From IMG/VR virus record IMGVR_UViG_3300025141_016375, positions 1 to 64,000 of that record: a stretch of DNA of 64,000 nucleotides; one strand, given 5' to 3'. Below, in pieces: positions 5,349 to 53,968 of this stretch. The position numbers were made by a program, and so were the translations under genes. Each line of letters starts with the position of its first letter. The stretch's first letter is position 1. This DNA is from a virus. The notes below the pieces were generated by a model. It saw only the letters and a list, made by a program, of their open reading frames with translations. It did not search any database and was not told the DNA's origin.

Positions 5349-5364
5349 CTTAATTAACTTTCTA

Positions 5365-12362: not shown

Positions 12363-12370
12363 AGGTGACT

Positions 12371-36400: not shown

Positions 36401-39383
36401 AGCTACATGGGCATATGGAGGTGCCAATGAGCTTGGGAGGGGCGGTGATTTCACCACCGGCCGATCCCCGACCGCAGTTTTATGGGCAGGCTTCCTCACA
36501 GCGCCCATCTCCGAAGGCTTTACTATACCAGGGGCACACAGCGCGGTTATAGACGAGAGCACCCTTACAACAGTCCAAAGCCAGGAAAGCATGCTTCAAC
36601 TTGCAACCTTGTACCCTGGTGTAGATCTTGGGGCCGAGGTGCTCCAGGGACTTCCCAAGATAGAAGGGGGTAAAGGAGGAAGTTATTTTAAGTTTGATGT
36701 GCCAATGCCCCCCATCATTGAAAGAAGCGGTGAAATAGAATTTATATCTCACGGTGTCAATTCTGGTTTGGCGACGGACCCTTACGTAGAACTAAACTAT
36801 GTCAAGAAATTTTACGACAATTTGGGTACCAATGGGCTTCATCCTGATATGGCAGAAAAAAACCGACAAGCTTTTAAAGACAGCCTCTATGGCATGACTC
36901 GATGTTTTGCCGGAACCGCGTGGAGTGAGTTGGTGCAGCCCCTATCTAAATTTCTTTATGAAACAAAACTAATACTACTTTTCCCCCAAATGCACGACTT
37001 TTTATTACCAGAGAATTTCGATTTAGTGAAAACATACTATGAATCACACATATTCTGGCACTTTTTCCAACACAATTTCATTGGAGGGGTAGAGCGGGCG
37101 TCCGACATTAAAGTTTATGGCGGTACGATAGATAGCAAGTATATCATGCAAAACTATGCTGCTATTGGATCCGCTCTGACATACCAAGGAAAAATATATT
37201 TAAGCGACTGGTTGCTACTCACTGGCAAGTTTGAGCCCCCGACGCGTCGCGACTCAGACCTCAGTGGTTTTAACAAGGGCTGGCACTCTGGTTTTGCGCT
37301 GTGGGACGGCGGCCTTGCACCTCAAGGCGCCGACTACTATGGGAAACTGGGAAAAGACGCGCGCGCGCCAATCAACCCCGTCGTTTTTGATGAGTTTATG
37401 ACGAATGGCATCCTGGCCCCCGAAGTAAAAGATGCAATTCCACACCATCCCTCGAATGCTCTAGATCCGGCTATAAGTTGGGGTAATTACCTTTACAATG
37501 GCCTAGAGGCCACTTGGGAAAATACTGTCGGCGCCGGCAAAACGGTGACCGAAACGGGTGCCACGTACCAGGATCTCACGCCCGTTTGGCACCGCCTCGT
37601 TGATGGGACATTTAAGTGCGGCCCGGCCACAAACGCGCGGGTGTCGGAACAAGATCTATATACTGATAACTTTTTTGGTTGGCTTTATAGTCTGGAGTTA
37701 GCCGAGATCGTTGATATTGAATTCGGCTATAATATAACACAATATACTTTTGCCGGGACGGCTGTAACCAAGCAAGCGAAGAACGCCGCGCAAAATGCTC
37801 CGGACTTACCGCATGCCGAAAAGATTTTCGATGATATAATTGAAAATTATTGGAAGGGGAGCGATTACACTGCGCGCTGGGACATTATCAATACCCTGAT
37901 CAAAGAAAAAGTGGGCAAAGTAAAGGTGGGGAGTAATAATTTTTATTATATAGCTTTTCCTATTTTCAATGTTGCCAAAAAAGCCCCTGGACGCCTGCGC
38001 TTTTTAGATTATATCTACCAGAGCAAATTTGACGATGCAGCTACACAGACCCAATGGATCTTTACATGGCCGGGCGAAACTCCTGTCACCCCAGCGGAGA
38101 TAGGCGTAAATGTTCCACTTGAAGGCGCCCTCTCCCAGGCCGGCGACGGCGTACCTGTTGCGCGCAGCCATTATAATTTTGGCAAATGGGCTCCGCAGCC
38201 TATTCGTGTGAGAAACGGGGCTCTAAGTCAAAATCCGCGTAAAACGCGACCGGTGAACCCAAAAAACTTGGATTGGATTGGATTGCAAAAAACTCCCATT
38301 GGAAAATGCGTTGGTTTTGTTCATATATATAGAAGCGATAGCTATGAGACCCCGACCGACGCCAAATGGATTCATTACACATTGGGCCCAGCGAACGTTG
38401 CGTTTACTCCCACACAGTTGCCTTGGCTGTACAACGATCTAAGGGCATTTAACTTAGTACCGGACGACAAAGATCCGGTCGATTACAAAAATGTAGGCGG
38501 TCGCCGGCGAGCCATATATGGGTCGAATTCATACTATGCGGCGCAAACAGCTGTGAAGTTGGCGAACTGGTATGAGGAACATACAAAAGGCCAAGCAGAG
38601 GCAATTGGAGAACATGGAATTCTCATCAGCAACGAGAAACATCTCAACGCTGCTTGTGAAGCCGTGGCCATTCCTAAGAATTACATGGGAACTTGGTGGG
38701 AATTTAGTGATGGCGTCTCAGTAACCGAAATAAAAGAAGATACTGTAGATGTTCTCTTTGGCAGTAAATACAATACTTTATATGCCTCTACTATTCGCTT
38801 GGCCAATATAATAGGAGCGGAAGAAGACACCGATCCTTTATTTGCCTATGGGGAAACTTTTTTCGAGATGATGTCCGAGGATAAAAAAGTAGCTTTCGAG
38901 AGAATTATGAAAAGCTTCTTTTTGAAAGAACAAACCACCATTGTAAGCATCATGCATCGTATTCTCAGTCAAAAATACTACCCTGCCATTGAATATAATT
39001 TTGATTACTCCACCAGAAATATAACTAATGCTCTAATGACAGCTATAGCTGTGGCGGGTGGCGACTATCAATACGCCGCGCCGGGTACAGAAACGGATAT
39101 CCCATTTCCGCTAGATTTATCTAATGTCGATTGGTCAGAATTGGCTGAGATGGTTTTAAAAGCCCTTTTAGGTGCAATAGCTAGCGCATGCGACCCCACA
39201 TGGCAAACCCCTTGGTTCTTTCCCGGGCCTTTTACGCCCATTGGAGTGGCGGCTAAAATCTTAATCGGCAAAGACTGGTGGGGTGACGATGATGATGGCG
39301 ATGGAAGGGTACGAAAAACTTGTGAGGATGCCTTAACAGAACAAACAAAACTATTAGATTTAGGGCCTTTTTTCAATAAATAA
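30495..39383 (+). CDS. Giant virion-associated protein, 2962 aa
   Basis: TTG start with AAGGATGG upstream. No catalytic motif is recognised. Visible parts: a Lys/Pro/Thr-rich linker near 220-270; a coiled coil of heptads at about 630-690 (ANALQEELSEAPLHKEP, KIANLKDQLEDMKEAVAKQK); one hydrophobic segment, AMLCAAIFATVGAAIYGIYY (about 890-910); and a C-terminal PWFFPGPFTPIGVAAKILIG followed by an Asp/Gly-rich DDDDGDGR that could bind calcium. It lies directly before gp25-like and gp6-like wedge genes, so a tail or baseplate component is likely. The membrane-like segment could help membrane contact. Composition varies along its length, suggesting a mosaic build. Confidence 0.8.
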   Translation: MPKVEVFKNAPDVKMHNPVSNEIFRYDHVFFKRQQSSFDVIHIYGLYGVKSGGPSYSDNPATSVWCTAPPATTGPAGYDRKPLSQCYGGTRAKNEIAEHIIKYGVKNKFFKAGTVAAPLPEVIDIANDPANPTSLTQFSQWLQQTEKERGTQALPIFVVKVLPIPANNWPLAFKGMRLIPKDYKYAYCFHAMIPIAAFQKQMSGDCTIPKTVTSDSAEIQKKEVEKAMDADKKAKSPKPPAQGTKAEPGTVATTEGQPDITEDSSTTRGSGETLRYVSTYKIDNIPLYVDIVAKVLQRVDTKMKEYGITFPTRPLNLGVQIKNLEYFKDNIKSQLAKVASPVDPKKRVILAFDKKFKLTAVQYEDKKHPEVRVLAAHAPYFSQTANALIYHLIHIYKKYQTTYGSAEWNAPEVEIRAFLKKYIFPTPLILNTAAGEYIAEKYLLGDKRLLNEKFWDKYKQFPMSANVKMQMKNFAGDSYKMIGDALGFKYASGGFQQIDDFDDFYEQCLEWIDLSKIIQVAAVCMMKAIGADEWIDKICKEVVDEFEKHRDAIIGWCESQDDPATKAFAKELKDLMFAGENWMLKQTESMLVQGAKKLAEMAVTAADRETWASTTSLRNYLQNLSREANALQEELSEAPLHKEPSGLVDKIANLKDQLEDMKEAVAKQKQRQTDLGTALPANETNLYGQLLDEKNRISTKIGKLQGAQRLRQEQFTIYNLLLDEILPELTVLNPYLSETTKGSSTDKTEIYDWFESARNATPSKLKETAAASLNEATLRTRLDAIAIDVAGGTVVGGVSSKLYFNVASTYVDIYQDYHLFAASTDGKDKNNAQMIEDTFDSLLVKVGLLLKIIHEKGAQTGSFGSLLKEGAFKGGKAALLEMFDKDQRKRAMLCAAIFATVGAAIYGIYYLIDNWDEVSVAMTGDMKKLAGAIEKRFALFMRTDYPVMDILESLKEAAKQIGLNLLKDLVVNTIMWLVDVMQAACAEEELVAAPYSPFGQVSLGDFMVASKTNNNLTSGEGVMERTKSFTALSTQTNISLETFNIILSTLSAGLSIREVCSLLEETAPGGTYNRAIQILQTIPQLQNTSFYDYYVNMDGIKTFFELISKDIKPQYCILAKQAFEREKELLLNICVDPADDVLAANLADYLSSEDVLEALANRKKSNLDRAGDAAKFLGQILDGPEEIDPMCGGGANSMSPRHESQQYAANQAGDAIFAAIEKVFEDEIRRIKYIYRDDAALMNAWAAQQTAEGGDTPSNMKLFSDAILGAPAQSKAAGDAAMAEFESIAGIATAADVDFVANKIRTQIRGLNTRNAFVVKYAQVDAADDFDTTIKTKTEIAELIKGWAWAAIHPQDMAQNPEMFFVMLEYGDVDAWRGVWYEDKGNPFASDQEFWKSFGYPDGQPELPDESDDSEAYLDLQKILQVVGTATIIPAFSFDLGTDVSLDWGAYHPQLFAGLDRMIRFRYKPTAPGKPNVSLQVYIPSTGEILASYKTRKVGLPFNFYMLYQEQNGWNDKAAWLNNVFLYQFAWPNNTYNILINSIFEDLLRYSGDNGLYTRENFSALHLNKYSPWSTLTNGEPNPEKCFLGFFNKNVLNNQTQKMIDALACFNPDSVSKNSTTVSFIKMLVDCLIRVIVVKETMKTLFTFGIFNKSQLYVKDIEGEDEEVPFFQVYFKKEIERALLKQFGVIASQLFNPRQGLGYSGKVGKAVKVDKEEEGAGDPDAIFADPCSMEPALETANFQAAATELQKFNDEIIAEWVTGVTRVLFQNEQLTDAEAISININQQIAYVQEVLYRGIPDNVKGEQLSGTLAAYQQAAAKASKNTFLENFDPHTGGSETWVAEASNLIKLEKLNAKAKLLTIENDALESFFNPAPVLASKGETETMRAERLWFPYDRLMLSPATIYMEWQLVEQREAKASLWRYINTSAQSYWTAKYSGVDELVEWIEQDQSVVGAHTNPDRNTWTKLATWAYGGANELGRGGDFTTGRSPTAVLWAGFLTAPISEGFTIPGAHSAVIDESTLTTVQSQESMLQLATLYPGVDLGAEVLQGLPKIEGGKGGSYFKFDVPMPPIIERSGEIEFISHGVNSGLATDPYVELNYVKKFYDNLGTNGLHPDMAEKNRQAFKDSLYGMTRCFAGTAWSELVQPLSKFLYETKLILLFPQMHDFLLPENFDLVKTYYESHIFWHFFQHNFIGGVERASDIKVYGGTIDSKYIMQNYAAIGSALTYQGKIYLSDWLLLTGKFEPPTRRDSDLSGFNKGWHSGFALWDGGLAPQGADYYGKLGKDARAPINPVVFDEFMTNGILAPEVKDAIPHHPSNALDPAISWGNYLYNGLEATWENTVGAGKTVTETGATYQDLTPVWHRLVDGTFKCGPATNARVSEQDLYTDNFFGWLYSLELAEIVDIEFGYNITQYTFAGTAVTKQAKNAAQNAPDLPHAEKIFDDIIENYWKGSDYTARWDIINTLIKEKVGKVKVGSNNFYYIAFPIFNVAKKAPGRLRFLDYIYQSKFDDAATQTQWIFTWPGETPVTPAEIGVNVPLEGALSQAGDGVPVARSHYNFGKWAPQPIRVRNGALSQNPRKTRPVNPKNLDWIGLQKTPIGKCVGFVHIYRSDSYETPTDAKWIHYTLGPANVAFTPTQLPWLYNDLRAFNLVPDDKDPVDYKNVGGRRRAIYGSNSYYAAQTAVKLANWYEEHTKGQAEAIGEHGILISNEKHLNAACEAVAIPKNYMGTWWEFSDGVSVTEIKEDTVDVLFGSKYNTLYASTIRLANIIGAEEDTDPLFAYGETFFEMMSEDKKVAFERIMKSFFLKEQTTIVSIMHRILSQKYYPAIEYNFDYSTRNITNALMTAIAVAGGDYQYAAPGTETDIPFPLDLSNVDWSELAEMVLKALLGAIASACDPTWQTPWFFPGPFTPIGVAAKILIGKDWWGDDDDGDGRVRKTCEDALTEQTKLLDLGPFFNK

Positions 39384-39424: not shown

Positions 39425-39823
39425 ATGGCTTACGGATACTCAGCAGTTTTACCTTTACAAAGAAGTCAAGAGGATGGGTTTTATGCACTCACAAAAACTC
39501 TTGCTTCCAATATCAAACAAAATTTAATGAATATTTTATTGACGGGACCCGGTGAAAGAGTGATGCTTCCCAATTTTGGAGTAGGTCTGCGGCGCGTGCT
39601 TTTTATGCAGGCCCACGAAGCACTTGAAGCGGAGATAACCGAAAGGATTGAAGATCAAGTGGCGACTTATATGCCTTTTGTTTCTATTACCCGCATCAAG
39701 TACTTCAAGTTTAATACCACCGTGGAAACATCCGAAAGAGAACACCAGTTTGACATCCAACTATTTTATGGAGTCCCCCAGTTGAATTTCTCTGATTTGT
39801 TAGAGATTATTCGATTGCCATAA
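39425..39823 (+). CDS. Baseplate wedge protein, gp25-like
   Basis: 132 aa, close to T4 gp25 in length. LASNIKQNLMNILLTGPGER and LPNFGVGLRRVLFMQAHEAL match the GPW/gp25 family, with the P-x-F-G-x-G-L-R segment as its core. gp25 joins the wedge and the tail sheath and begins sheath assembly. It precedes gp6 as in other myoviruses. SD AGAGGA. Confidence 0.93.
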   Translation: MAYGYSAVLPLQRSQEDGFYALTKTLASNIKQNLMNILLTGPGERVMLPNFGVGLRRVLFMQAHEALEAEITERIEDQVATYMPFVSITRIKYFKFNTTVETSEREHQFDIQLFYGVPQLNFSDLLEIIRLP

Positions 39824-39842: not shown

Positions 39843-41636
39843 ATGCCTTATATTAAAAAACCGCTCATTAATTATACTAATAGAGAATTTGAAACTATTA
39901 AAGCCGATTTAGTTAATTATGCGCAGAAGTATTATCCCGAAACCATGCAGGATTTCAATGAGGCTTCATTTGGTTCTTTGATGTTGGACATGGTAGCTTT
40001 AGTGGGCGATATGCTTTCCTTTTATATAGATTATCAAGCAAACGAATCATTTATTGAAACAGCCAACGAATACGAAAATGTTTTAAATCTTTCTAAACAT
40101 TTTGGATATAAGTATAAGCCCAACGCCTCTTCTATGGGACAAGTGAGCTTTTTTGTACTGGTTCCAGCACTAGGAGGCTCTGTCGCCCCCAATTTAAATT
40201 TGGCGCCTATTATTCGCAAGGGCTCTCTTTTTTCTACCACAATTGGGACCCTTTTCACTTTAATGGAAGATATAAATTTTTCTCAATCTTCGGATATTGT
40301 GGCAGGAGAAGTAAACGCAACTACTGGGGCGCCCACGAGCTATGCTATTAAAGCTCAAGGAATTGTAGTCTCTGGCGAATTACGAAGCAAAGATTATACC
40401 ATCGGCGCTTACGAAAAGTTTTTAAGGGTACAAATTGATGACAGTAATGTGACAGAAGTGGTAGCCGCCTTTGATTCCAATGGCAATAATTATTATGAAG
40501 TAGACTATCTCACCCAAAATACCGTTTATGTGTCTGTTATCAATAATCAGTCCAATATGGATACCGTGAGAAATATTTTAAAACCTGTATCTGTGCCTCA
40601 TCGCTTCGTGGTGGAGCACAATGAACTTTCTACAACTTTACAATTTGGGTTTGGCACACAAGATAATGAAGCAAAAATATTGGATCCGACCAACATTATC
40701 TTAAATGTTTTTGGAAAAGAACATTTTAGTGAGCCATCTTTTGACCCTACCGTGTTGATTAAGACGGATAAGTTGGGTGTTGTTCCTTCGGATACCGTGC
40801 TAACAGTTATTTATCGTCGTAATACTACATCCAATGTCAATGCGGCCGCCAATTCTTTACGCAATACTGTTAATGCACAATTCCAGTTTCGTAACGCCCA
40901 AACGTTGAACGCGGGATTGATGACAGGCGTACGTAATAGTTTAGAGCTTACTAACGAAAATCCGATTTTTGGGGATGTTTCGGCGATTAGCGCGGAGGAA
41001 TTAAAATACCGCGCCTATGGGACATACGGCGCCCAAAATCGTGCCGTCACTAAAGAGGATTATATTACGATGATATATAATATGCCCGCTAATTTTGGTC
41101 AAGTAAAAAAAGCCACTATTGAACGCGACGTAGATTCTTTTAGCGGTAAAAATTTGAATTTATATGTTCTTTCAACAAACGATGGGGGCAAATTTGCGCC
41201 TACTAACCTCACTATTAAACAAAATTTAAAGACATGGATAAACCAATATAAAATGTTGGGCGATACTATTGATATCCTCGATGGTCGCGTGATCAACCTT
41301 GAAATAAAATTTACCGTCGTTGCCTTTGCAAATGTCAACAAATACGACGTGTTACAGCTGTGTCTCAATACTCTGACCAGCTTTTTTCAAGGCTCCTATT
41401 ACGATCTTGGCGAGCCATTTAAAATTACAGATGTATATAAATTATTAAACAATATAAGCCAAGTATTAGATGTCAAAGATGTGACGGTAACACCCAAGCG
41501 TGGAGCGGGCTATTCGGATTATGCTCCTTCTTTTGACGAATTGGCCTCTGATGATGGGAGATTTTTAATGGCACCCCACGATACGGCATTTGAAATACTG
41601 AGTCCAACCAACGATATTGATGGAGAAGTGATTTAA
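39843..41636 (+). CDS. Baseplate wedge protein, gp6/J-like
   Basis: 597 aa. The start PYIKKPLINYTNREFETIKA and FNEASFGSLMLDMVALVGDM, then LSFYIDYQANESFIETA, match gp6-type baseplate wedge proteins and the baseplate J family. gp6 forms the ring that holds the wedges and triggers sheath contraction. The middle contains TKEDYITMIYNMPANFGQVK, a conserved segment of these proteins. It follows gp25 with AGGAGG upstream and overlaps the next gene by 1 nt. Confidence 0.9.
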   Translation: MPYIKKPLINYTNREFETIKADLVNYAQKYYPETMQDFNEASFGSLMLDMVALVGDMLSFYIDYQANESFIETANEYENVLNLSKHFGYKYKPNASSMGQVSFFVLVPALGGSVAPNLNLAPIIRKGSLFSTTIGTLFTLMEDINFSQSSDIVAGEVNATTGAPTSYAIKAQGIVVSGELRSKDYTIGAYEKFLRVQIDDSNVTEVVAAFDSNGNNYYEVDYLTQNTVYVSVINNQSNMDTVRNILKPVSVPHRFVVEHNELSTTLQFGFGTQDNEAKILDPTNIILNVFGKEHFSEPSFDPTVLIKTDKLGVVPSDTVLTVIYRRNTTSNVNAAANSLRNTVNAQFQFRNAQTLNAGLMTGVRNSLELTNENPIFGDVSAISAEELKYRAYGTYGAQNRAVTKEDYITMIYNMPANFGQVKKATIERDVDSFSGKNLNLYVLSTNDGGKFAPTNLTIKQNLKTWINQYKMLGDTIDILDGRVINLEIKFTVVAFANVNKYDVLQLCLNTLTSFFQGSYYDLGEPFKITDVYKLLNNISQVLDVKDVTVTPKRGAGYSDYAPSFDELASDDGRFLMAPHDTAFEILSPTNDIDGEVI

Positions 41637-43633
41637 TGGGAATTAAACGATGGGTTGCAAACCAAGACAATACAATTACGAATGCTTTTGCACCTAACTT
41701 GTTGACTCGCGGCGTCAGCGGCAACATGGGCCAATCCGATGTTCTAGAAGTCTTCTCTATTTTTGGACAAGCCTCATCTGCTTCTTCAGAACTAGAAAGA
41801 ATATTAATTCAATTTCCAGTGTCCCAGATCTCTTCGTCTAGAGGTGCAGGCACCATTCCTGCTTCTGGTAGCGTAGATTTTTATTTAAGGATGTTCAATG
41901 CCAAGCATTCATGGACCACTCCCCGAGATTATACTTTAGATATTTGTCCCGTTTCACGCTCCTGGTGCGAAGGTTTGGGCTTGGATATGGAAGATTATAG
42001 GGATTTAGATGCTTCTAATTGGCTCTACAGCTGCCCGGCCCCTGGCACCCAAGCATGCGCGACTATTACCATAGAAAACACCGATGGTGGCCCTGTCCCC
42101 GGCGCTAACAACCCGTTTATCAATCTAACCATCGATGCCGGAGCGGGCCCCCCTCCGGCCACCTATCAATTTCAAGGACTCCATGGCCCCTTATGGTGGC
42201 CCAGTTCCTTTCGGATAGGCACAACGACGACAGCCATTGCCACCGATCTGGCGAATGTCATTAATGTATCAGCTAGCGACCACTTTACTGCTTCTTCAAA
42301 TGGAAGTGTTGTGCGCATATGTGCGACAGGCTCTGGGGTATATGGAAATAATTATGCCGCAGTCGGCTTCCCATCAGTCGACGCCGACGCCGCCGGCAGG
42401 TGGGTGTTTGCGACGGTAACCGGCGCAGCTGCCACGGAGTATTTCTGTTCAATGGGGCCCGACATGAGTGGGCCCGCTGCCCCGGCACTCCCGGCCCTCT
42501 GTGGCGGGGCTCTCTACCCAGCGGGGAGCGCCTCTTTGGGAGGTGGAAGCGCCGCCGAGGGGTTTATTCGCTGGACAACAGAAGGCGGCGATTATTTAAG
42601 CTCTCCATGTTTTTCTCAATACTTTGACACTGGTAATGAAAATCTAGAAGTTAACATAACTCCTCTCGTTGAAGAATGGATTAGCGGGACTGTCGCCCGG
42701 GGCACCCAGCGTGACGCCCTTCCTAATTATGGCGTCGGAATTAAATTAAGTGCCACCGACGAAGGAGATTCTTTTTCATATTATACTAAAATGTTTTTTG
42801 CCAGAGGTTCTCAATTCTTTTTTAAACGTCCAATTATTGAAGCACGTTGGAACAGCAGTATACTAGATGATCGGGGTAACTTCTTTTTAAGCTCATCGCT
42901 TGTGCCTGCAACTGATAATTTAATGAACCTTTACCTTTATAATGTGGTAAGAGGGCAATTAACAAACATTCCTGCGGTCGGCACCGGTAAAATACTAGTT
43001 AGTGTTTATTCTGGATCTAACGACAATTCGGCTCCTTTTGGCGCCAAATTGGAACTTCCAGCCGGTGGGGGTGTGGTGGCCGACGATGATGTGAATATCA
43101 CCGGTTCCTGGGTCGAAACAGGCGTCTATTCAGCTTCTTTTGCATATACTTCGTCAGCTATTACGACCATTTTTGATGTATGGCATAGTGCAAGTGTGGA
43201 ATATCACACCGGCAGCGCCGTCACAGTAAGCACCTTTGACAGTCAAAACTTCAATTTTGACCGCCGATATGTTTCCAAAGTTATTAATTTGCGCCCCGTT
43301 TATTCCCCCGACGAAACGAGTAGATTTAGACTTTACGTTCGTGAAAAGGATTGGCAACCCACCATTTATACGGTGTCGTCCAATATCATGCCTAATCAAA
43401 TAATTTACAATGCGTATTATCAAGTGAGTAGAGTTTCCGACAATTTAAAAGTGATACCGTATGGCACGGGAAGTTCAAATCAGACCAAACTTTCTTATGA
43501 TGTGAGCGGAAGTTATTTTGATTTGGACATGGCACTCTTTGATACTGACACGGTTTACTCATTAAAATTGGCTTATTTGATTAACGGTACGTATACAGAA
43601 CAACCAGAAGAATTTAGATTTAGGGTCGAGTAA
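41636..43633 (+). CDS. Virion protein with DNRLRE-like domain and internal insertion
   Basis: 665 aa. Two separated halves of a DNRLRE-like beta domain are seen: LERILIQFPVSQISS and RDYTLDICPVSRSW before, and NITPLVEEWISG, NYGVGIKLSATDEGD and RPIIEARW after. Between about residues 135 and 308 sits an extra GC-richer block with Gly/Ala/Pro-rich sequence and TAIATDLANVINVSASDHFT, resembling beta-repeat domains of fibres. It starts at the gp6 stop (TAATGG) and lies in the wedge region. A baseplate-surface or fibre-attachment role is inferred. Confidence 0.75.
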   Translation: MGIKRWVANQDNTITNAFAPNLLTRGVSGNMGQSDVLEVFSIFGQASSASSELERILIQFPVSQISSSRGAGTIPASGSVDFYLRMFNAKHSWTTPRDYTLDICPVSRSWCEGLGLDMEDYRDLDASNWLYSCPAPGTQACATITIENTDGGPVPGANNPFINLTIDAGAGPPPATYQFQGLHGPLWWPSSFRIGTTTTAIATDLANVINVSASDHFTASSNGSVVRICATGSGVYGNNYAAVGFPSVDADAAGRWVFATVTGAAATEYFCSMGPDMSGPAAPALPALCGGALYPAGSASLGGGSAAEGFIRWTTEGGDYLSSPCFSQYFDTGNENLEVNITPLVEEWISGTVARGTQRDALPNYGVGIKLSATDEGDSFSYYTKMFFARGSQFFFKRPIIEARWNSSILDDRGNFFLSSSLVPATDNLMNLYLYNVVRGQLTNIPAVGTGKILVSVYSGSNDNSAPFGAKLELPAGGGVVADDDVNITGSWVETGVYSASFAYTSSAITTIFDVWHSASVEYHTGSAVTVSTFDSQNFNFDRRYVSKVINLRPVYSPDETSRFRLYVREKDWQPTIYTVSSNIMPNQIIYNAYYQVSRVSDNLKVIPYGTGSSNQTKLSYDVSGSYFDLDMALFDTDTVYSLKLAYLINGTYTEQPEEFRFRVE

Positions 43634-43636
43634 TTT

Positions 43637-46600
43637 ATGTCTTTAAAAGATTTATTTAAAGAAGATGATAATCTTAGAAGTTTTGAACCCATTACCAAAG
43701 CGGACATAGACGCTGATTTAGAGTCGTATGATTATTTAAAAGCCGTTCAAGAAAGGTCGCGCCGATTCCTCCCTTTAGAAAAGTTTGCGAAGCCCGAGAC
43801 CTTTGCCAAATTTGGCTCCGCCGAGAAATATTATGAAGACTCCATTCGGCGCATATACAATACTTATCCTTATGATGGCTCTTTAAAGGAGAAAATACAA
43901 TGGGAGCTTTCCTCTTCTGTAATTGATATATTTCTTTTGGAGAACGGGTACCCGCGTACTACAGGGTATGCTACTTTTTCTTCGGCCAGCTTCGCAGCCA
44001 CAGTATTAGTTAATGGCTATGGCGCCGTCCCCACTGCTTCTTACGAGTTTATTTCACTTCAAGGTGGCCCCCATAAGGGCACCGGCAAATCCCTTTATTA
44101 TGATCAGTGGCAAGATACGACCACATATCGTAAAGATGCGAATATTTTGGATCGTAGCCAAAATAGAGAAAACAATTTAAAAATTGATGGTATAGATGGC
44201 AATACAGTAGAGTTTTGGCTTAAAAAGGAAGCTTTTTTGGTATTGGGAGACCCCGATTACACCAGCGAGAAAGAGGTTATAATTGATGTTTTTGTATCTG
44301 GTACCACACAAGTTGATCAGGAGTATGGGAGGTTAAGAGTAGAACTTACCGGGACCGCCGATGTAGGAGCGACTCCGTGGCTAGTCACTTTTTCCTCCGG
44401 CACCCTTAACGCAATGATGCAACAGCCCATTGGTAGAAACATTACGACTGCCTCGGTGGCGGATGGCCAATGGCATCACTATGCATTTATATTTCAAAAT
44501 AATGCCGATAACCCTGGTAACGCGGTGCAGTGCGATCTTTTTATAGATGGCGCTCATAATAGCAGAGCCGTAGGAACCGGGGAGGTTTTTTATGTTAGCG
44601 GCGCCCTCGAAGCCACCGTTGGAGCGCTCGGGTCTGCCGATCCTCCCGAAACGGGCGTCACGGCACTCAACGGCGCCCTCAAGGGGTATGCCAAACTGTC
44701 GGGGTCTCTCGATGAAGTACGTTATTGGAAAACTGCTCGGACATCAAAAAAGATTCAACAATATTGGTTTGATCAGGTTGGAGGGGGAACCAATAGTGAT
44801 CTTGCCAATACCCATTTGGGTGTTTATTATAAATTTAATGAAGGGATCACCACTAATGTCGCCATCGACGCGAATGTATTAGATTATTCCGGACGTATTT
44901 CGAATGGAACGTGGACTGGCTATAATCCGCTTTTTTCTCGCTCAACAGGGTCTGCAATGATAGAATCTTCGGCTAGCGCGATAGAATTTAGAGATCCCAT
45001 TATTTATCCTTCTCATCTTGACGTAGTGAGCTTTTTAAATACCCAAAAGGGCATCGGAAAGGATTACGACACTACTAATGTCAACTCTCTCGTTTCCTAT
45101 ATGCCCACCTGGATGCTAGAAATTAATGAAACCGCGGAGGCAGATGCCAACAAGAACGTGTTAATGAATTTGTTACAGATACTTTCAAGTTATTTTGACA
45201 ATGCGTCGCTTTTGATCGATAAAATCCCTTCTCTAAGTGAACCCAAATATTACACCTCGGGCACTTTTCCGCCTCCCTTTAATAAGAGGCTTTTAGAATC
45301 CCGCGGCTTTGTAGCGCCCGACATTTTTATGGATCTCAGCTTGCTTGAACAGTTTGCACAGCGGGACAATACTCTTTTATTCCAGGAGAGCGTAGAACAT
45401 GTTAAAAGAACGATTTATCAAAATATCTATAATAATTTAATTTATTTATATAAATCAAAAGGCACCGAAAAATCTTTTAGAAACTTAATTAGATGTTTTG
45501 GTATTGACGATGAAGTATTAAAATTTAACATTTATACTAAAAACAATACATTTAAAATACAAGACAACACCAAATATGTCACTAAAACAAAACAATACGC
45601 TAATTTCAATGAAGTAGAAAATGGCGACGCAACGGTATATCAGCATACAGCGTCGGACGATACCAATGCCACTTCCTTTCTTACCATGGGCCCGGGCCTT
45701 GTGGGCGGTGATGTTCCTACTTTCAGTTCGGGCACTGCTTTTACTTTAGCAGCCGACGTAATTTTGCCAAATCATGTAACTATTGCGGAATACGCCACAG
45801 TTAAAGAAAACTATGATGGTAAAGTACAAAATCATTATCCTTTGATAGTGTCTTCATCTTTATTTGGCCTTCATGACGTAACTTCAGTTGAAAATGTTGG
45901 AACGTGGATCAATCCGGACTGGGCGAATTTTCAAGTTTATGCTGTAAAAGAAAATAATGATAAGTTTTCAACCACAGCTAAATTTGTTTTGAGCAGCGTG
46001 CCAAGCGCTCCCGCGGGACCAATAGAGACTATATTACCTATTGAATCGCCTTTTTTTGAAGATATTTATGACGATCAAAAGTGGACTTTAGCAGTATCCG
46101 TCTTTCCAGAAAAACAGGGAGTGAACCAAGTTGGAGGAACTAGTGGTTCCGACATGGGCGTCCCAACCTCACCCGACCAATCAGATTATATAATAAGATT
46201 TTATGGGTGTAATCATATCTCCGATATAAAATATCAAAGCTTTGAAGTTAGTGCGACGATTCCACAACAGGCTGGCGATTGGGGAGGCGCCTTCTTCTGG
46301 CACTGGCCCAACAAAAGAATATTCGCCGGCGCCCACCGCACTGATTTTAATGGAAGTCTAAGAGAGTTCTCGGATGCCAAGATATCCGCAGTCAAAGCGT
46401 GGTACGCGAATATTCCCACCTCTTCTATAGATCAGCATAACAAAAAAGCTGGGAATTATGGCGCAGCAGCCCCCACAAAAAATGCTTTTCTTTACGAGGA
46501 AGCTTACAATTCAGTTAATATACCTGAAATAGGAACGCTCGCTCTTCACTGGGATTTTACCACTGTAAGCTCTTCCGATGCATCGGGCCAATTTTTTGTT

Positions 46601-49600
46601 GAAGACGTTACATCCGGGAGCAACACCGATAATCGTTACGGTGATTTTAGCACGGGTGTATCTCGAAGACATCCGGGCCGCGGCGATTTCTTCCAAGCTT
46701 CTTCAACAGATGCGGTTCAAAATATTGCGCGCGCCACACTTAAACAACAAGTACCTGAAGTGTTGATAGATTCTAACCTCACAAAAATCTTAACTCAAGA
46801 CGATGAGTTTTTTAATCGCGCCGCGCGTCCCATTACTTATTATTTCTCTATAGAAAAAAATCTGTTCCAAAGCATTTCTGAAGAGATGCTCGATATGTTT
46901 GCTTCTATTAAGTATTTAAATAATCTAATTGGGGAACCTGTAAATCTTTATCGATCCGAATACAAAGAATTGGGCAAGTTGCGCGAACTCTTTTTTGAAA
47001 AAGTTGGGAATGATTACGATTTTGATAAATATGTAGAATACTACAAGTACATTGATTACGCGATTGGCCAATATATTGAAAAACTCATTCCTGCTTCAAT
47101 GTCTACTTTTCGCAAAGGGATCACAACTACAGTTGAAAACTTTGCATTAGACAGAAACAAATATGCGAATAAGTTTCCAATTATTAAAGATAAGATGCCA
47201 CCCATTCTTCAGGCCCAAGCGCTGGGAATTAATGAACTTTTATATGATTGGGAGTTTGGCCATGCGCCTTCTTCTTCTGCCGGTTTTGGGACTCCGGAGT
47301 CGGTAGCTTGTCTTTGGTGGAAAGAACGAGCCGAACGAACAGGGTCCTTATCTATTGTAAGCAGCGACAATGCCGTCAATATCGACAAGCAAACAATGCT
47401 GGATTCTATTGTAAATGAGACAAATGCGAGCGCTCCAACGGTAAGTCAAACGAGTTCAGCTGGAACATCGATGTATTCTGGTTCCACTTATGTGACGCGA
47501 CGATTGGCGAAACCTTATAGGCTTACGAGCGATCAGTCTCCATATTACCATGGAGGATCCAATTTTTATCAAAACAAGAAATATGATATTGTTAATGCGA
47601 TGGGAGGTCTAAACCTTTTTCCGAACAATATGCTAGAAATAAGCAATGTCGAAGCTTTTGAAGAATGCACCGATGGACTAGATTTAGGGAAAAAACGGAA
47701 ATATAAATACGAGGCGGCAATAGTAAATTTAGCAGGCGCCGGAGAACAAAATTATTTTAGAGCGAAGGGCGATTTGTTTGCTCCGTTCAGCCTATATAGT
47801 GCATCCATCGCAGGAGGATACCATGATGAAATAGCTGCACAATTTATGGTCGGCGCGGACATCACCAACTTTCATGATGATACATATGGCCCGGCCTATG
47901 AAGTACCAATGCAAGGTCCCTTTACTGAAAAATATGTTGGCGGATATCAGTATAGACACATTGATTTAAATTATAGTGGGACAGACCATCCTTTGGATAC
48001 GGCCGTCACCCGTCCGGAAGGAAGGCTCGTGGAACTTAGTTCCGGCGAGATAGAGATTTTGGGCCAGTGGCTTTCGACCGACCGCGATCCCCCAGCTTGG
48101 TCTTTACGAGAGCCATTAGCCAAACGCCCCGTAAACATTGCGAACATTCTCCAAACAACCGGCTCCAGTCCAACTAAAATTGGTAACTATGAACACGATT
48201 ATGATATTGTGCAGACTAGTGGCCGAACAATTAATAATTTGTTCTTTGTTGAAAGCGAAGGCATTGAGGTCATACCACAGACTTCACTTGTAATATTCTC
48301 CCCTGGCGCCACCCCTCCTGGCGCGCCCCTTGTGGATTATACTCTACCAGATCGTAGCATCAGCGGATCAAACAAATTTGTTTTTGTCAATCGCTTTTCT
48401 GCACCAGGCGGCCCTGAAGTCTCGTCTCTCGGCTTCATGGATGTAGAAGCTGCAGAGTTCTCTGTTTATAATGCGCTACCCTTTAGAAACTTAACTGTAC
48501 GATTGCCATTACAAGAATTATTAACAGATCATTGCAAACAATTTGGCTATTTCAGCGACGCTCAGAACTCTGCCAGTTACGTTTTGGCTGGAGTCGCTTA
48601 TCCCGGTACCAGCGGTTCGGTCAACACAGGATCTTATTATGCAACAGCGGGATATACAGACGCTACAGCTTCTTTCCATAAAGTTAATAGAAACACCAGG
48701 TTACAACCATTTATAGCAAACACTGGCTCGTTCTTTAACACTCTTTGTGCATCTTTGGTTAAAGCGACACCCGACTATATAGCCAATCTGGGCACGGCGG
48801 CCACTGACGGGTTGACCATTTGCACCTATTCTATGTGGGTCAACCCTATTGGAACTTTGTCTCCCACTTTAGACATGGCTATGAACCTAGGTGGTGCGCA
48901 ACGCACTATTGATATTCGCGGCAATACTCCGGCCACACGATTCGTCCGTTTCGGCGCGGATTTTTCTACTACGGACGGTGTGTGGGACACAGACGAGGGA
49001 AGTATTATAGTGGGGGAATGGCACAATGTTGTGGTGGTGTATGATGGCTCGCTCACCACTAATGTTCCCGTCATTTACATTAATGGCGCACCCATGAACG
49101 TTACCACTTTTACGGAGCCGCAGGGAACATTAGTGATCTCCTATACTGCCCCCTATACTATTCTGGGGATAGACGCCAGTATAGGTGCGCTTTTTGCATT
49201 TGATGGATTTATAGATGAGGTGAGTTTGTGGAATAAAGCCCTAACTGCTGGCGAAGTACAAGAAATTTTTAATTCAACCGATGATTATTGTTATGGGGGC
49301 CCTAGCAACCTCTTTCAACACTCAGCAGTGGCATCTTTAATAAACTGGTGGCGCATGGGCGATGAACCCGGCGATGCCCTTCCCGCGGGCCCAATTATAG
49401 ATCTCATTGGGGGCATTAATTTAACCACAATCGGAGGCGCCCCAACCCTTTCCGCTGATGTGCTCTCTGCATATTGTTATGCTATTAAGACCAAACCCGC
49501 CTACGACAACGCTTACATACAACATCAAATCCCCCAAACAGATGTACAATACGCTTGGATTAAAGCAAGCTTAATTGAAGGATATACGGGATCTGCACTT

Positions 49601-52600
49601 TATGGATTTGAAGAGCCGAATTACAGTCTTGCAAGCATGGCCTCTACGGATCTGACGTTTTGTAGTGCGAGTGATGTGGGAAGCAATTTATTCCGCGACG
49701 GTGGTTTTGTAGAATATGGCCGCATGCTTGGAGCACAGTACGGAAACCCGGTGTGCACGGTTGTATCACACCCAGAGACTTTTTTACCAACAGATTTTGT
49801 TGGTTTAAATTCTAATATTGTGGAACCTATAAGTTCTTCGACGAATATACTTGGATATCCCTCTCTCGTCGCCTCCTTCCATCCAGGCTGCATGGCTGAA
49901 GTAAATTATGTTAATACTACTTTTTGCGATGCGGAAGGCGCCAACGGCAACACTAACAGCCCAATGGGCCTCGCATCAGTTCTTAGCGCATTAATTGGCC
50001 ACCGCCAAGGTCCATACGGTTGGCCCACTTGGAAACAAATTAGAGGCGGGATACACCCAATTGCGCGATACCAACGAAATCATAACATTATTCAGTATAT
50101 AGATTTTGTTCAAACATGGACGGTTCAGCCCTTCCAGGGGGTGTCGATGCTGATGCCAGGCGGGACGGCCAAAACAATTATTTCCACAACAGAGCCCCCC
50201 TTATCTTCAAAATATAAGCCGCTCACCTTTGTAATGCCCTCTCATTCTCCTGCTAAGTTCGAGGAAAGCTTTGCCACAGTGGCATATGGAAACGCTCTCG
50301 TTAAGTTTACCGATCATCGTACTGAATTTGTACCTTCGCCGCTTGTCGGCTCCACGGCTTTAGATCTAGATGCTAAATTGAATACGGTTGCCACTAATAC
50401 TTATTCTAACTTTGGGGCGATGAGAACTTTATTAGCCAAAAGCAATTATGCTGCAAACCCTGACGATTTTATTAAGGTTTCTTATAGTGAAACCATTTAT
50501 CCCAAAGGCCAATACACTTATTTAAGCGGATCGCGTAAAAGAACGAGTTTTACCAATACGTTTTGGCGAACACACCGTTTTGATCGCACCATTCGTGATC
50601 TGCCTAATTCTTTGAGTGATTCACTGGGCGGCGGAGTTGTGCTTATTCCCACGGCAAGCATGTGGAAATTAGACGGGCATCTAAATTTTACAGACAATGC
50701 AGATTTTTGGACCAGCGGAAGTACCAATTTCAGAGCAGATGGCGCCGGTGAGCTACAAAATAATTATTGCTTATGGCGTAATAGTTTAGAGCCGGGTCAT
50801 GTAAGCTGGGTGACCAATCCCGTGGACCCTGGAGCGTTTGTATATAATGCCGAGGGCTGCCAATTAACACCGTTGCCCCGAGCCGCCAGCGAATATGCGA
50901 GAAGAATACCTTATGTAGACATCAATGAAGATAACGGCCCACAAGCACGTAGCGGAAGTTACCGTCCTAATTATACGGCTGGTGGAGGCCTCGGCGAATG
51001 CAATGCTATTCCCATCCTGGGCAAACCCGCTTACTTAGCTGAATATTCTTTCCCAGATTTTGAGGGCTTTACAGGGGGCTCCACTGAATATTTTGTTTAT
51101 GACACTATCATTAATGGCGATACCAAATGGACAGCAGCCGAGGAAAGCCCTTTAAATTATCAACCTTTTTATGATAGTTACGATGACTATATTGAAGATT
51201 TGTTTAGAGCTTCTAAGGACGCGACGATTGTACCTGAGTTTAGAATAAGTGAAAATATAAACTTTTACTTTAGCAATAATCCCAATATTTTCTTTGACGA
51301 AACGGGATTAAACTGGGCTCATGGCAACATCACAACGAATCAGTTGCTTACTTTGACAGGTTCGAGTTATGAGCCAAGTACGGGCAATTATGACGACTTT
51401 TTGAAAAGGTATGTCTTCTCGGATTTCTTAGAATATTTTACAATTGTAAAAGACACCTATGAGGATGGCCGCAACAAACTTCCGCCTGGAAGTAATCAAA
51501 CGGAAGCTAAGACCGATTCGTTCGGCAACACTGTTTACGTAGAGACCTTACCTCCTCCTTTAGAAAGTACGCGTTTTAAAATTGTATGCGAAGCCGGAAT
51601 CAAATTTCTTCCCTACGATGGATTTTACCCTGCCGAAAGGTGCGTTCAATTAGGAACTTTATTTTCACAGTCGGCCACGACCACGTTTGCGGGGACAGAA
51701 GCCAATTTTAGAACTCTGATGCAGCCTTTCTTTGCGCCTGGCATTGTATATAACAGTATTAAATCGGGCCTCGCGGTTGACTATCCGATCTATACTGCCG
51801 GTACGACTCCTCTTACGGCTGCATATAGTGCATCGACCAACACGGTGGCGTACAACATGGACGAGTTCGTCACGAACACTCTTTTATGGCAGGCCCAATT
51901 AGATGGCACGCCGTTTGATACTAGGATTCCTTTTGAGACCTTGTACGAGGCGGTTCCTCTTCCTACAACTATTTTAGATTTTGAACCAGCATGCCGTGCC
52001 CACATTGATTCTACTGCTTCTTTGAGCACCATCAATAGTAACTTTAGAGCGGCAATGGATAATTTCTTAGCAGAAAGTGTGAATACCTTTTTGGAAGGTG
52101 GAAATGTTACCCAACTTAAAAGCAATGTTTTCGTTAAAAACCTAGGGGACGGCGTTCCCATGGTCACAGTGCCTGGAAGCCCCTCCGCCACTAAAACTTA
52201 TTCAATGGATGTGGTGTTAAATAATTCAACCAACATCAACAGTCTAAGTGATTTTAAGACGGCTGTGGAATTGCTTACCTATGACAGCGGCGATCCGGCC
52301 TCGTTAGGGAGCAACCCCCAATCGTGTAGTTTAAATGTAAATTCTTCTTCCATTATCATGTATTCGCGTGCCACCACGGGATATAGTATCGATCCCCATC
52401 TTTATGGTTCATCTTTTGGCATGCCCATGACGGCGTTCACGGCACAAACTATTCATGGCTCCAATGGTCTTTTAAGTCCACAGTGTACATACGGTACATG
52501 GTACAAGCTGGCCAGTTTCGAGCCCTATACACCTCCTTATTATGACGGTTTTGCAGCAGTTAGAATCTCCGTAGAACTACCGGGAGGCGAAGCTAGCATT

Positions 52601-53968
52601 ACTCAGATTGCCAAAGATTTGCAATATACTTATTATCGTATGCCCACTTTCCACTCTTCTACGACTGATAATAAGGCATGGGCAAACGCGATGCATATGA
52701 GTGCATCTATTAATTTAGGCGGCGACAATTCGGAGAAAATTATTTTTGAAGGATACACTCCCAATAACCAGCACTATCATCAACAAATAATCTTTTCTCC
52801 CAAGTGGGAATGTCCTATTCTTGATTTTACAGATAAGACACCCGAGAAACCTTTTTACTCTACTATTGATGGGGGTGTAGCAAAAGGAATGTGGCATCAA
52901 TATGGAGAAATCCCCTCTAGTGTCACATCGTCCCCTTTCGAACCCACCGGAAAGAAGGGGATTCAATTAAGTGTCCAACAAAGCGCAGAATCACGAACGC
53001 AGGAACATGGAGATCTGGCTACGTTACTGGGGTTTGTTGGGCCCGAGGTCACCCCTCAGACATTAGGAACGTTGGGTGAATACAGCACTGTTCAAACCCA
53101 GGCCAAGAAAAATACTCTAAGCGAAGCTCTAGTGGCTATTCCTTTCAAATTTGATAAAAACAATAATACTACTCAGACTTATCAGATCCTTCAGAGCGCT
53201 CTGGATGGCAAATCTGCGCCAAATGCTCAAACGTTCACAAATAGCAATGGCGTTACTACCGAAGTTCCTCCACGACTTAAGGGGGCGCGCGACTTATTCT
53301 TAGATGAGAATGGCCAGGTCATAGATTACGCTAATTTATTACCTCCCACTTTTAAAGAATTTTATACTAAATGGCCCGCAGAAAAAGACGTTCTTGATGA
53401 TATTGATCCTGAAGTATATGCGTTGCTACAAAAAATGCACAAATACGTGGTGCCGCCCGAATTAGACTTTTTGCATAACCCTTCTATTTCTCCTTTTGTC
53501 ATGTATATGTGGGAGTTTGAAGTAGACTTAAGCACACAAGATCTACAGAATATTTGGCAAAATATTGCACCCCCATTAGTTCAAGATGATGGAAATGCTA
53601 GCGGCGGATTTCTCAAGGTCGCAGGCACACCAATTGAACATGTGATGCCCACAACGGCGGCTCAGGCTATGTTGGGGGACCATCACAATTTCTTTTATGA
53701 TATCTTTGATGAAGAAATAACCCGTTGGGCTGTCTTTAAAGTCAAAAAAAGGGCGCGCAATAACTATAATAATATAATAGGGCGCCCAAAAGATGGTGAT
53801 AATTTCTTGATCCGACGCGATCTTTATTCCAAAGGAGTGGGGCCGAAAGATTATCCCTATTCATATAATTGGCCTCATGATTTTTATTCTTTGATTGAGC
53901 TAGTAAAAATTGACACCAGCACCACTTTTTCTAAACGAGTAGCCGAAATGCGCACAGAGGAAGACTAA
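43637..53968 (+). CDS. Giant virion protein with two LamG-like domains, 3443 aa
   Basis: Largest gene in the window. Two concanavalin/LamG-like regions are readable. The first, about 184-410, has NTVEFWLKKEAF, ADGQWHHYAFIFQN, LSGSLDEVRYWKTART and GVYYKFNEG. The second, about 1710-1910, has LTICTYSMWVNPIG, VGEWHNVVVVYDGS, FDGFIDEVSLWNKALTAGE and LINWWRMGDEPGD. Such domains bind glycans or proteins. The N-terminal 100 residues are helical and charged. The rest is beta-rich with many aromatic residues. The context after gp25 and gp6 supports a baseplate or tail-fibre component that may touch host-surface glycans; that is inference. Confidence 0.82.
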   Translation: MSLKDLFKEDDNLRSFEPITKADIDADLESYDYLKAVQERSRRFLPLEKFAKPETFAKFGSAEKYYEDSIRRIYNTYPYDGSLKEKIQWELSSSVIDIFLLENGYPRTTGYATFSSASFAATVLVNGYGAVPTASYEFISLQGGPHKGTGKSLYYDQWQDTTTYRKDANILDRSQNRENNLKIDGIDGNTVEFWLKKEAFLVLGDPDYTSEKEVIIDVFVSGTTQVDQEYGRLRVELTGTADVGATPWLVTFSSGTLNAMMQQPIGRNITTASVADGQWHHYAFIFQNNADNPGNAVQCDLFIDGAHNSRAVGTGEVFYVSGALEATVGALGSADPPETGVTALNGALKGYAKLSGSLDEVRYWKTARTSKKIQQYWFDQVGGGTNSDLANTHLGVYYKFNEGITTNVAIDANVLDYSGRISNGTWTGYNPLFSRSTGSAMIESSASAIEFRDPIIYPSHLDVVSFLNTQKGIGKDYDTTNVNSLVSYMPTWMLEINETAEADANKNVLMNLLQILSSYFDNASLLIDKIPSLSEPKYYTSGTFPPPFNKRLLESRGFVAPDIFMDLSLLEQFAQRDNTLLFQESVEHVKRTIYQNIYNNLIYLYKSKGTEKSFRNLIRCFGIDDEVLKFNIYTKNNTFKIQDNTKYVTKTKQYANFNEVENGDATVYQHTASDDTNATSFLTMGPGLVGGDVPTFSSGTAFTLAADVILPNHVTIAEYATVKENYDGKVQNHYPLIVSSSLFGLHDVTSVENVGTWINPDWANFQVYAVKENNDKFSTTAKFVLSSVPSAPAGPIETILPIESPFFEDIYDDQKWTLAVSVFPEKQGVNQVGGTSGSDMGVPTSPDQSDYIIRFYGCNHISDIKYQSFEVSATIPQQAGDWGGAFFWHWPNKRIFAGAHRTDFNGSLREFSDAKISAVKAWYANIPTSSIDQHNKKAGNYGAAAPTKNAFLYEEAYNSVNIPEIGTLALHWDFTTVSSSDASGQFFVEDVTSGSNTDNRYGDFSTGVSRRHPGRGDFFQASSTDAVQNIARATLKQQVPEVLIDSNLTKILTQDDEFFNRAARPITYYFSIEKNLFQSISEEMLDMFASIKYLNNLIGEPVNLYRSEYKELGKLRELFFEKVGNDYDFDKYVEYYKYIDYAIGQYIEKLIPASMSTFRKGITTTVENFALDRNKYANKFPIIKDKMPPILQAQALGINELLYDWEFGHAPSSSAGFGTPESVACLWWKERAERTGSLSIVSSDNAVNIDKQTMLDSIVNETNASAPTVSQTSSAGTSMYSGSTYVTRRLAKPYRLTSDQSPYYHGGSNFYQNKKYDIVNAMGGLNLFPNNMLEISNVEAFEECTDGLDLGKKRKYKYEAAIVNLAGAGEQNYFRAKGDLFAPFSLYSASIAGGYHDEIAAQFMVGADITNFHDDTYGPAYEVPMQGPFTEKYVGGYQYRHIDLNYSGTDHPLDTAVTRPEGRLVELSSGEIEILGQWLSTDRDPPAWSLREPLAKRPVNIANILQTTGSSPTKIGNYEHDYDIVQTSGRTINNLFFVESEGIEVIPQTSLVIFSPGATPPGAPLVDYTLPDRSISGSNKFVFVNRFSAPGGPEVSSLGFMDVEAAEFSVYNALPFRNLTVRLPLQELLTDHCKQFGYFSDAQNSASYVLAGVAYPGTSGSVNTGSYYATAGYTDATASFHKVNRNTRLQPFIANTGSFFNTLCASLVKATPDYIANLGTAATDGLTICTYSMWVNPIGTLSPTLDMAMNLGGAQRTIDIRGNTPATRFVRFGADFSTTDGVWDTDEGSIIVGEWHNVVVVYDGSLTTNVPVIYINGAPMNVTTFTEPQGTLVISYTAPYTILGIDASIGALFAFDGFIDEVSLWNKALTAGEVQEIFNSTDDYCYGGPSNLFQHSAVASLINWWRMGDEPGDALPAGPIIDLIGGINLTTIGGAPTLSADVLSAYCYAIKTKPAYDNAYIQHQIPQTDVQYAWIKASLIEGYTGSALYGFEEPNYSLASMASTDLTFCSASDVGSNLFRDGGFVEYGRMLGAQYGNPVCTVVSHPETFLPTDFVGLNSNIVEPISSSTNILGYPSLVASFHPGCMAEVNYVNTTFCDAEGANGNTNSPMGLASVLSALIGHRQGPYGWPTWKQIRGGIHPIARYQRNHNIIQYIDFVQTWTVQPFQGVSMLMPGGTAKTIISTTEPPLSSKYKPLTFVMPSHSPAKFEESFATVAYGNALVKFTDHRTEFVPSPLVGSTALDLDAKLNTVATNTYSNFGAMRTLLAKSNYAANPDDFIKVSYSETIYPKGQYTYLSGSRKRTSFTNTFWRTHRFDRTIRDLPNSLSDSLGGGVVLIPTASMWKLDGHLNFTDNADFWTSGSTNFRADGAGELQNNYCLWRNSLEPGHVSWVTNPVDPGAFVYNAEGCQLTPLPRAASEYARRIPYVDINEDNGPQARSGSYRPNYTAGGGLGECNAIPILGKPAYLAEYSFPDFEGFTGGSTEYFVYDTIINGDTKWTAAEESPLNYQPFYDSYDDYIEDLFRASKDATIVPEFRISENINFYFSNNPNIFFDETGLNWAHGNITTNQLLTLTGSSYEPSTGNYDDFLKRYVFSDFLEYFTIVKDTYEDGRNKLPPGSNQTEAKTDSFGNTVYVETLPPPLESTRFKIVCEAGIKFLPYDGFYPAERCVQLGTLFSQSATTTFAGTEANFRTLMQPFFAPGIVYNSIKSGLAVDYPIYTAGTTPLTAAYSASTNTVAYNMDEFVTNTLLWQAQLDGTPFDTRIPFETLYEAVPLPTTILDFEPACRAHIDSTASLSTINSNFRAAMDNFLAESVNTFLEGGNVTQLKSNVFVKNLGDGVPMVTVPGSPSATKTYSMDVVLNNSTNINSLSDFKTAVELLTYDSGDPASLGSNPQSCSLNVNSSSIIMYSRATTGYSIDPHLYGSSFGMPMTAFTAQTIHGSNGLLSPQCTYGTWYKLASFEPYTPPYYDGFAAVRISVELPGGEASITQIAKDLQYTYYRMPTFHSSTTDNKAWANAMHMSASINLGGDNSEKIIFEGYTPNNQHYHQQIIFSPKWECPILDFTDKTPEKPFYSTIDGGVAKGMWHQYGEIPSSVTSSPFEPTGKKGIQLSVQQSAESRTQEHGDLATLLGFVGPEVTPQTLGTLGEYSTVQTQAKKNTLSEALVAIPFKFDKNNNTTQTYQILQSALDGKSAPNAQTFTNSNGVTTEVPPRLKGARDLFLDENGQVIDYANLLPPTFKEFYTKWPAEKDVLDDIDPEVYALLQKMHKYVVPPELDFLHNPSISPFVMYMWEFEVDLSTQDLQNIWQNIAPPLVQDDGNASGGFLKVAGTPIEHVMPTTAAQAMLGDHHNFFYDIFDEEITRWAVFKVKKRARNNYNNIIGRPKDGDNFLIRRDLYSKGVGPKDYPYSYNWPHDFYSLIELVKIDTSTTFSKRVAEMRTEED

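Follow-up and report, generated by a model that had tools for sequence, protein, structure and literature searches.

The window, a stretch of 64,000 nucleotides from a possibly incomplete IMG/VR virus record of 73,894 bases, contains an ATG-initiated open reading frame at 43637-53968 (+) encoding a 3443-residue protein (P0001), hereafter the giant. It follows two genes for baseplate wedge proteins and a third gene, for protein X. The tmRNA gene of this phage record lies elsewhere in the window (4969-5349, tag ANDNVEFDFALAA; ARAGORN). The features of the locus are as follows.

39425..39823, + strand: gp25-like baseplate wedge protein (Pfam GPW_gp25, 5.4e-13; phrog_261, 3.9e-14)
39843..41636, + strand: gp6-like baseplate wedge protein (phrog_10646, 9.5e-19; phrog_219, 4.5e-16)
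41636..43633, + strand: protein X, 665 aa, a conserved neighbour between the gp6-like gene and the giant
42026..42550, + strand: optional insert in X, residues 131-305 (comparison with relatives of X)
43637..43957, + strand: N-terminal helical domain, residues 1-107 (fold model; aligned in 115/115 relatives, which were selected for the N-terminal region and the core)
43958..44995, + strand: LamG1, residues 108-453, fixed part (Pfam; fold Z 19.6; 115/115 relatives)
44975..45706, + strand: wedge-like helical core, residues 447-690 (hhalign to the isolate family; KGT motif alignments)
45449-45502, + strand: KGT motif, residues 605-622 (P2 gpI and T4 gp7 motif alignment)
45704..46636, + strand: eroded LamG-like domain, tentative, residues ~690-1000 (beta-rich model; hhalign)
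46829..47356, + strand: helical end of module 1, residues 1065-1240 (fold model; frame ends in five relatives)
47357..48727, + strand: first part of module 2, residues 1241-1697 (comparison with relatives)
48728..49483, + strand: LamG2 cassette, residues ~1698-1949 (Pfam; LamG profile at 1731-1931; fold; anchor profiles)
49484..50608, + strand: second part of module 2, residues 1950-2324 (comparison with relatives)
50609..53965, + strand: module 3, residues 2325-3443 (a separate gene in the relatives L118, L119, L121 and L123)

An earlier note, made from the DNA letters, had described two LamG-like regions in the giant, and profile searches and fold prediction both bear this out. The motifs quoted there occur once each (DGQWHHYAF at residues 276-284, DEVRYWK at 359-365, VGEWHNVVVVYDG at 1792-1804 and DEVSLWNKAL at 1860-1869). 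Pfam Laminin_G_3 matches the protein in two stretches with 76.5 bits (E 3.3e-21; curated cut-off 27.6), and a LamG profile built from relatives finds residues 191-424 (1e-54) and 1731-1931 (8e-38). With this profile, no further LamG was detected at E 0.1 in open stretches of at least 60 codons on both strands of the window and of positions 60001-73894 of the record. The predicted fold of LamG1 (residues 108-453) is closest to PAPP-A (8d8o; Z 19.6, 220 aligned residues, 3.2 Å), followed by pentraxins and neurexin/laminin LG domains; the AlphaFold model containing it has a whole-model pLDDT of 73.6. LamG2 (model residues 490-684, corresponding to 1717-1911 of the protein) is closest to PTX3 (Z 12.1, 136 aligned residues, 2.9 Å). 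The concanavalin-type β-sandwich expected of LamG domains is thus predicted for both. The model of residues 1228-2330 that includes LamG2 has a pLDDT of 49.9 and is poor outside this domain, so the placement of LamG2 on a surface loop is deduced from alignments. Its base composition (0.478) is slightly higher than that of both flanks (0.444 each), and no exact 11-base direct repeats surround it within window positions 48601-49600. Outside the LamG domains, searches of PHROGs, Pfam and NCBIfam returned nothing useful for the giant. Its seven best matches in BFVD (E <1e-78) are viral proteins that are either unnamed or not characterised, and one of them is labelled uncultured marine virus.

The gp25- and gp6-like genes and X lie directly upstream of the giant, with X separating the gp6-like gene from it. 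The gp6-like protein matches proteins of the phages immuto and Mel-JY01 and of an unannotated 484-kb phage over 98-99% of its length at ~30% identity; against the annotated baseplate wedge protein of immuto, coverage is 98% and identity 30.8%. It was through this neighbour that relatives of the giant were reached among phage records. A search of these records with the first 1500 residues of the giant gave no match at 1e-5, and one with module 1 of a distant relative (L106) gave a single weak match (97 residues, 2e-3). In immuto, Mel-JY01 and the 484-kb phage, a protein of 1265, 1336 and ~1400 residues, respectively, stands after one or two X-like genes, and the arrangement of the locus in immuto and Mel-JY01 is that of the window, apart from the X genes. 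The family formed by the Mel-JY01 and immuto proteins matches residues 447-1177 of the giant (hhalign 99.7%, profile positions 425-1114); LamG1 was not detected in its first 395 residues. Directly upstream of the gp25-like gene, window positions 30495-39383 encode a 2962-aa protein with two Pfam matches below the cut-offs and otherwise no family; at a guess, it is possibly the tape measure.

The position of the giant raises the question of a relationship to the second member of the known wedge pairs. The gp6-gp7, gpJ-gpI and TssF-TssG pairs are held to be related, and those of T4 and the T6SS form two-to-one heterotrimers (excerpt of PMC6300606). For both P2 gpI and T4 gp7, the best-scoring alignment to the core lands on IYLYKSKGTEKSFRNLIRCFG (residues 602-622), the stretch with the KGT motif. 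The hhalign probabilities against the core are low (4.1% for gpI and 2.7% for gp7), and both scores exceed those of 100/100 column shuffles (gpI 23.8 against a best shuffle of 21.5; gp7, narrowly, 31.4 against 30.1). For gpI, a profile from the 80 kept relatives, 99-100% identical, was unusable, and nine phage records were used instead. Even at E 10, the record contains no match to Tail_P2_I (PF09684), and 1 of 74 core sequences gave one (E 0.073). When solved structures were searched by sequence in the PDB, the module-1 profile matched none at E 1, the core profile gave unrelated matches only (E 0.18 or worse), and the isolate-family profile gave nothing significant. The Foldseek and VIA lists for whole-module models were filled by LamG folds and held no gp7-like entries, which excludes nothing. 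Because the sequence support is weak but consistent and the Tail_P2_I cut-off is not reached, we describe module 1 as working like gp7/gpI and not as a member of the Pfam family. At the level of sequence, a gp7/gpI-like wedge protein is suggestive only.

Relatives in viral contigs were collected with two regions of module 1. The scan with residues 481-700 confirmed 412 relatives, the best 80 of which were kept, and that with residues 1-130 gave 44. Both regions are contained in 115 reading frames (the window's own left out), 83 of them nonredundant. BLAST identity to the giant is ~39% up to residue ~1650 and 27-30% beyond ~2000. LamG1 is recognised by the LamG profile in all 115 of these relatives, which were picked by the regions flanking it and not by LamG1 itself. 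The LamG2 site behaves differently. It is readable, with anchor profiles on both sides, in 55 of the 83 nonredundant members; 46 of the 55 are empty, with 11-30 residues, and nine carry a LamG. In near relatives (for example L003, L007 and L082), a short loop joins the HKVNRN motif to a YDN...IPQ motif at this place. Where the near relative L002 and the window can be compared, LamG2 is 34% identical, against 52% and 45% for the flanks. By this comparison of relatives, LamG1 is a fixed part of the protein and LamG2 an optional cassette that replaces a short loop. Since LamG1 is constant in a baseplate-type protein, its role may be to keep the virion assembled and not to bind a host. Attachment to the host surface by LamG2 is plausible.

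Twenty loci came out of a scan of genome contigs, and four cover residues 1-1200 in full. The MAGs that contain these four carry the labels WOR-3, Maricaulis (two) and Poseidoniales, which are too varied to name a host. One locus, L127 (10001-14680), encodes a 1559-aa relative with a full module 1 in CP070664.1, a 2.85-Mb chromosome of a candidate division WOR-3 MAG; its location there is either a prophage or an assembly error.

Several relatives divide the giant into two or three separate genes. The reading-frame match ends at residues 1232-1280 in L024, L030, L058, L072 and L106 and at 2318-2324 in L118, L119, L121 and L123. In all nine except L024, the missing modules are carried by following frames; for L024, no such frame was recognised in the locus. 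Either the giant has therefore arisen by fusion or the other forms by splitting, with module ends near 1240 and 2324. In L017 and L019 (8603-11299), the module 1 frame is 899 residues long and breaks off within the conserved part; a further frame with modules 2 and 3 follows, as a gene split or a frame break. Within module 1, residues ~690-1000 align with the same region of the isolates (hhalign 79.5%), whose middle region in turn aligns with LamG1 (81.9%). The window's own region reaches 39.9% against LamG1 and 2.0% against the cassette profile, and the region gives a weak LamG-profile match in relative L111; Pfam reports no LamG there. A third, badly eroded LamG-like domain is likely at this position, judging by these profiles and the beta-rich model, and probably the same holds for the middle region of the isolates.

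LamG domains occur in relatives at about eight other places: inside LamG1 (L058, L062, L110), at ~750-840 (L009, L040), and at ~1210, ~1350, ~1470, ~1550, ~2090, ~2450 and ~2620. More than one LamG match was found in 33 of the 83 nonredundant members, a count that includes a few single LamG1s cut by an insert and one eroded domain. Laminin_G_3 is the commonest recognised domain in the unaligned stretches of relatives, matching 38 of 111 at E 0.01 (deduplicated stretches of at least 100 residues, including tails and some misaligned scaffold). A single stretch of the 111 matches (E 4e-4) a jelly-roll model for receptor binding whose name comes from a toxin; the match indicates a fold class only and is no sign of a toxin. 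Inserts at least 80 residues longer than the window's protein number nine in residues 1-1185 and 59 beyond, in a set where contig ends truncate many members and a few of the places are wrongly assigned. There is also a second cassette class, domains of ~130 residues that have no Pfam match at 0.01.

A tree of 90 LamG domains (193 columns, quick method, many inner branches weak) places all 30 LamG1 rows in one group with 96% support, joined only by the eroded middle domain of L111. Mapping the place label onto the tree takes 25 changes; the minimum is 10, and shuffled labels average 54.7. The actual labels are thus much more clustered than shuffled ones, and most cassettes are inherited in place, with moves in the minority. 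Starred sister pairs that span different places are L068 (~1210) with L097 (~1550), L095 (~1350) with L092 (~1210), and L055 (~1210) with L076 (~1470).

Copies within one gene are clearest in L039. A 395-bp stretch, a cassette of the second, non-LamG class, occurs there at residues 1789-1920, in the socket at ~1470, and at 2316-2447, in the loop just before HKVNRN; the DNA identity of the copies is 93.7% and drops abruptly at the borders. The same gene holds two further repeated pairs (93.3% over 255 bp and 79.7% over 423 bp). Older repeats at 71-76% are present in L063, L095 and L040, and these four are the only ones of the 115 members with repeats longer than 150 bp. In L039, the neighbouring X and the giant of the same phage carry cassettes that are 86% identical to each other. 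Protein X itself has no PHROG match at 0.01 and no Pfam or NCBIfam match at 0.1. Among 120 relatives of X having both flanks, 12 carry inserts of at least 80 aa and 108 carry none. The only match of the window's X insert in the X-insert comparison is that of L009 (38.7% over 62 residues), and the X inserts of the window and L010 weakly resemble a stretch of the phrog_165 tail sheath family (8e-4 and 3e-3).

The earlier note had also proposed a possible link between the LamG protein and a cluster of glycan genes, and here the comparison lends no support. In 30 relatives' records, the glycosyltransferase at 12353-13642 is present in 28 (43-71% identity) and has the distribution of a core gene in the group, a sugar aminotransferase is present in 13 and an epimerase in 19. 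Neither of the latter two is associated with a LamG at the LamG2 site: the aminotransferase occurs in one of four records with such a LamG and 12 of 26 others (Fisher p 0.61), the epimerase in three of four and 16 of 26 (p 1.0). The test is weak, given fragmentary records, small groups and 26 other records that are not all readable at this site.

Taken together, we favour the view, at a probability of roughly 0.58, that the giant is a gp7/gpI-like wedge scaffold of the baseplate which is joined to additional modules and presents exchangeable cassettes for adhesion. The protein would belong to the baseplate of a phage with a contractile tail. Residues 1 to ~1240 would act like T4 gp7 or P2 gpI next to the gp6-like protein, and they include LamG1 as a fixed domain. 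Two further modules are fused behind them, as the split genes show. The comparison of relatives shows that a limited number of loop sites takes folded cassettes, either LamG sandwiches or other domains of ~130 residues, which are gained, lost and sometimes copied between sites; most of these sites lie in modules 2 and 3, and others in LamG1 and X. LamG2, replacing the short loop after the HKVNRN motif, is this phage's one such LamG. Wedge proteins stand in several copies around the baseplate, and LamG2 would therefore be placed at the host-facing periphery, where it could bind a surface glycan or protein and aid adsorption.

The exchange of cassettes could have little to do with binding. The LamG domains might be structural decoration, comparable to other accessory domains in tail proteins, that stiffens or protects the baseplate and is exchanged near-neutrally, with later, fibre-like genes binding the host. 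The constancy of LamG1 in relatives is in accordance with this, as are the non-LamG cassettes in the giant and X and the sheath-like resemblance of the two X inserts. That LamG is the commonest recognised domain in the unaligned stretches argues in the other direction, and LamG2 has diverged more than its flanks between the window and L002, as a displayed binding domain might. We regard decoration as somewhat unlikely. It is more improbable still that the giant is a tail fibre or adhesin merely adjoining baseplate genes, with LamG1 and LamG2 both receptor-binding. Its size, its modularity and its variable rear half are like those of receptor-binding proteins, and a significant match to a wedge family is also missing. 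The alignments of relatives show a fixed front and a variable rear, as a protein with a virion-bound part and a displayed part might. However, the front half shares its position and homology with a single protein of 1265-1404 aa in three deposited phages, identity peaks in this front half and not in the rear, and the KGT motif coincides in the gpI and gp7 alignments, all of which argue against this reading.

The wedge scaffold with exchangeable cassettes provides a proposed function for an unnamed, very large protein of an uncultured phage group, whose relatives in viral contigs number in the hundreds, and it distinguishes a fixed from an exchangeable lectin-like domain. The optional second domain may be the means by which these phages alter their attachment targets. 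The nearly identical cassettes that one gene carries at two sites look like recent events and offer a way to study the gain of binding domains in phages. For the wedge part, the isolates immuto and Mel-JY01 open the way to tests in culture. A bolder and distinctly tentative version is that the baseplate as a whole is a reprogrammable adhesin, in which wedge-type proteins and X have loop sockets filled by cassettes copied through recombination. If so, socket copying would run within one gene and between adjacent genes, and host attachment would evolve on the baseplate, not (only) on the fibres.

When comparing the giant with T4 gp7 and P2 gpI, the position behind gp25- and gp6-like genes, the KGT motif alignment and the helical core predicted by the model are shared. 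The giant differs in its length (3443 aa, compared with 1032 for gp7 and 176 for gpI), in its built-in LamG1 and two more fused modules, in having no significant family match, and in the one extra gene, X, that stands between the gp6-like gene and the giant. Among the closest known counterparts are two hypothetical proteins, QQO91841.1 of Flavobacterium phage immuto (1265 aa) and WWT39511.1 of Microcystis phage Mel-JY01 (1336 aa), each with a homologous module 1 from ~447 at the same locus. Both share the probable eroded LamG-like middle domain with the giant and consist of module 1 only; they lack LamG2, and their first 395 residues gave no LamG1 match.

The receptor-binding and baseplate proteins of phages are known to be mosaics of domains (excerpt of PMC10684548), and that paper's main text mentions neither LamG nor laminin. 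Laminin G3 domains have been linked to virion parts of jumbo phages, tail fibres among them (excerpt of PMC7824862), and LamG proteins appear in two phage descriptions (excerpts of PMC8541153 and PMC12038007). No report of LamG in a baseplate wedge protein was found among the matches listed, in a literature coverage mostly outside subscription journals. LamG1 and LamG2 have the fold and signature motifs of Laminin_G_3 and pentraxin domains; unlike such domains elsewhere, they are set in loops of a phage baseplate-type protein. Ig-like domains are mobile accessory domains of phage structural proteins. The cassettes described here resemble the mobile accessory domains of tail proteins in that folded domains are exchanged, and differ from those known elsewhere in that a single scaffold accepts them at many of its internal loops and that one gene can hold nearly identical copies.
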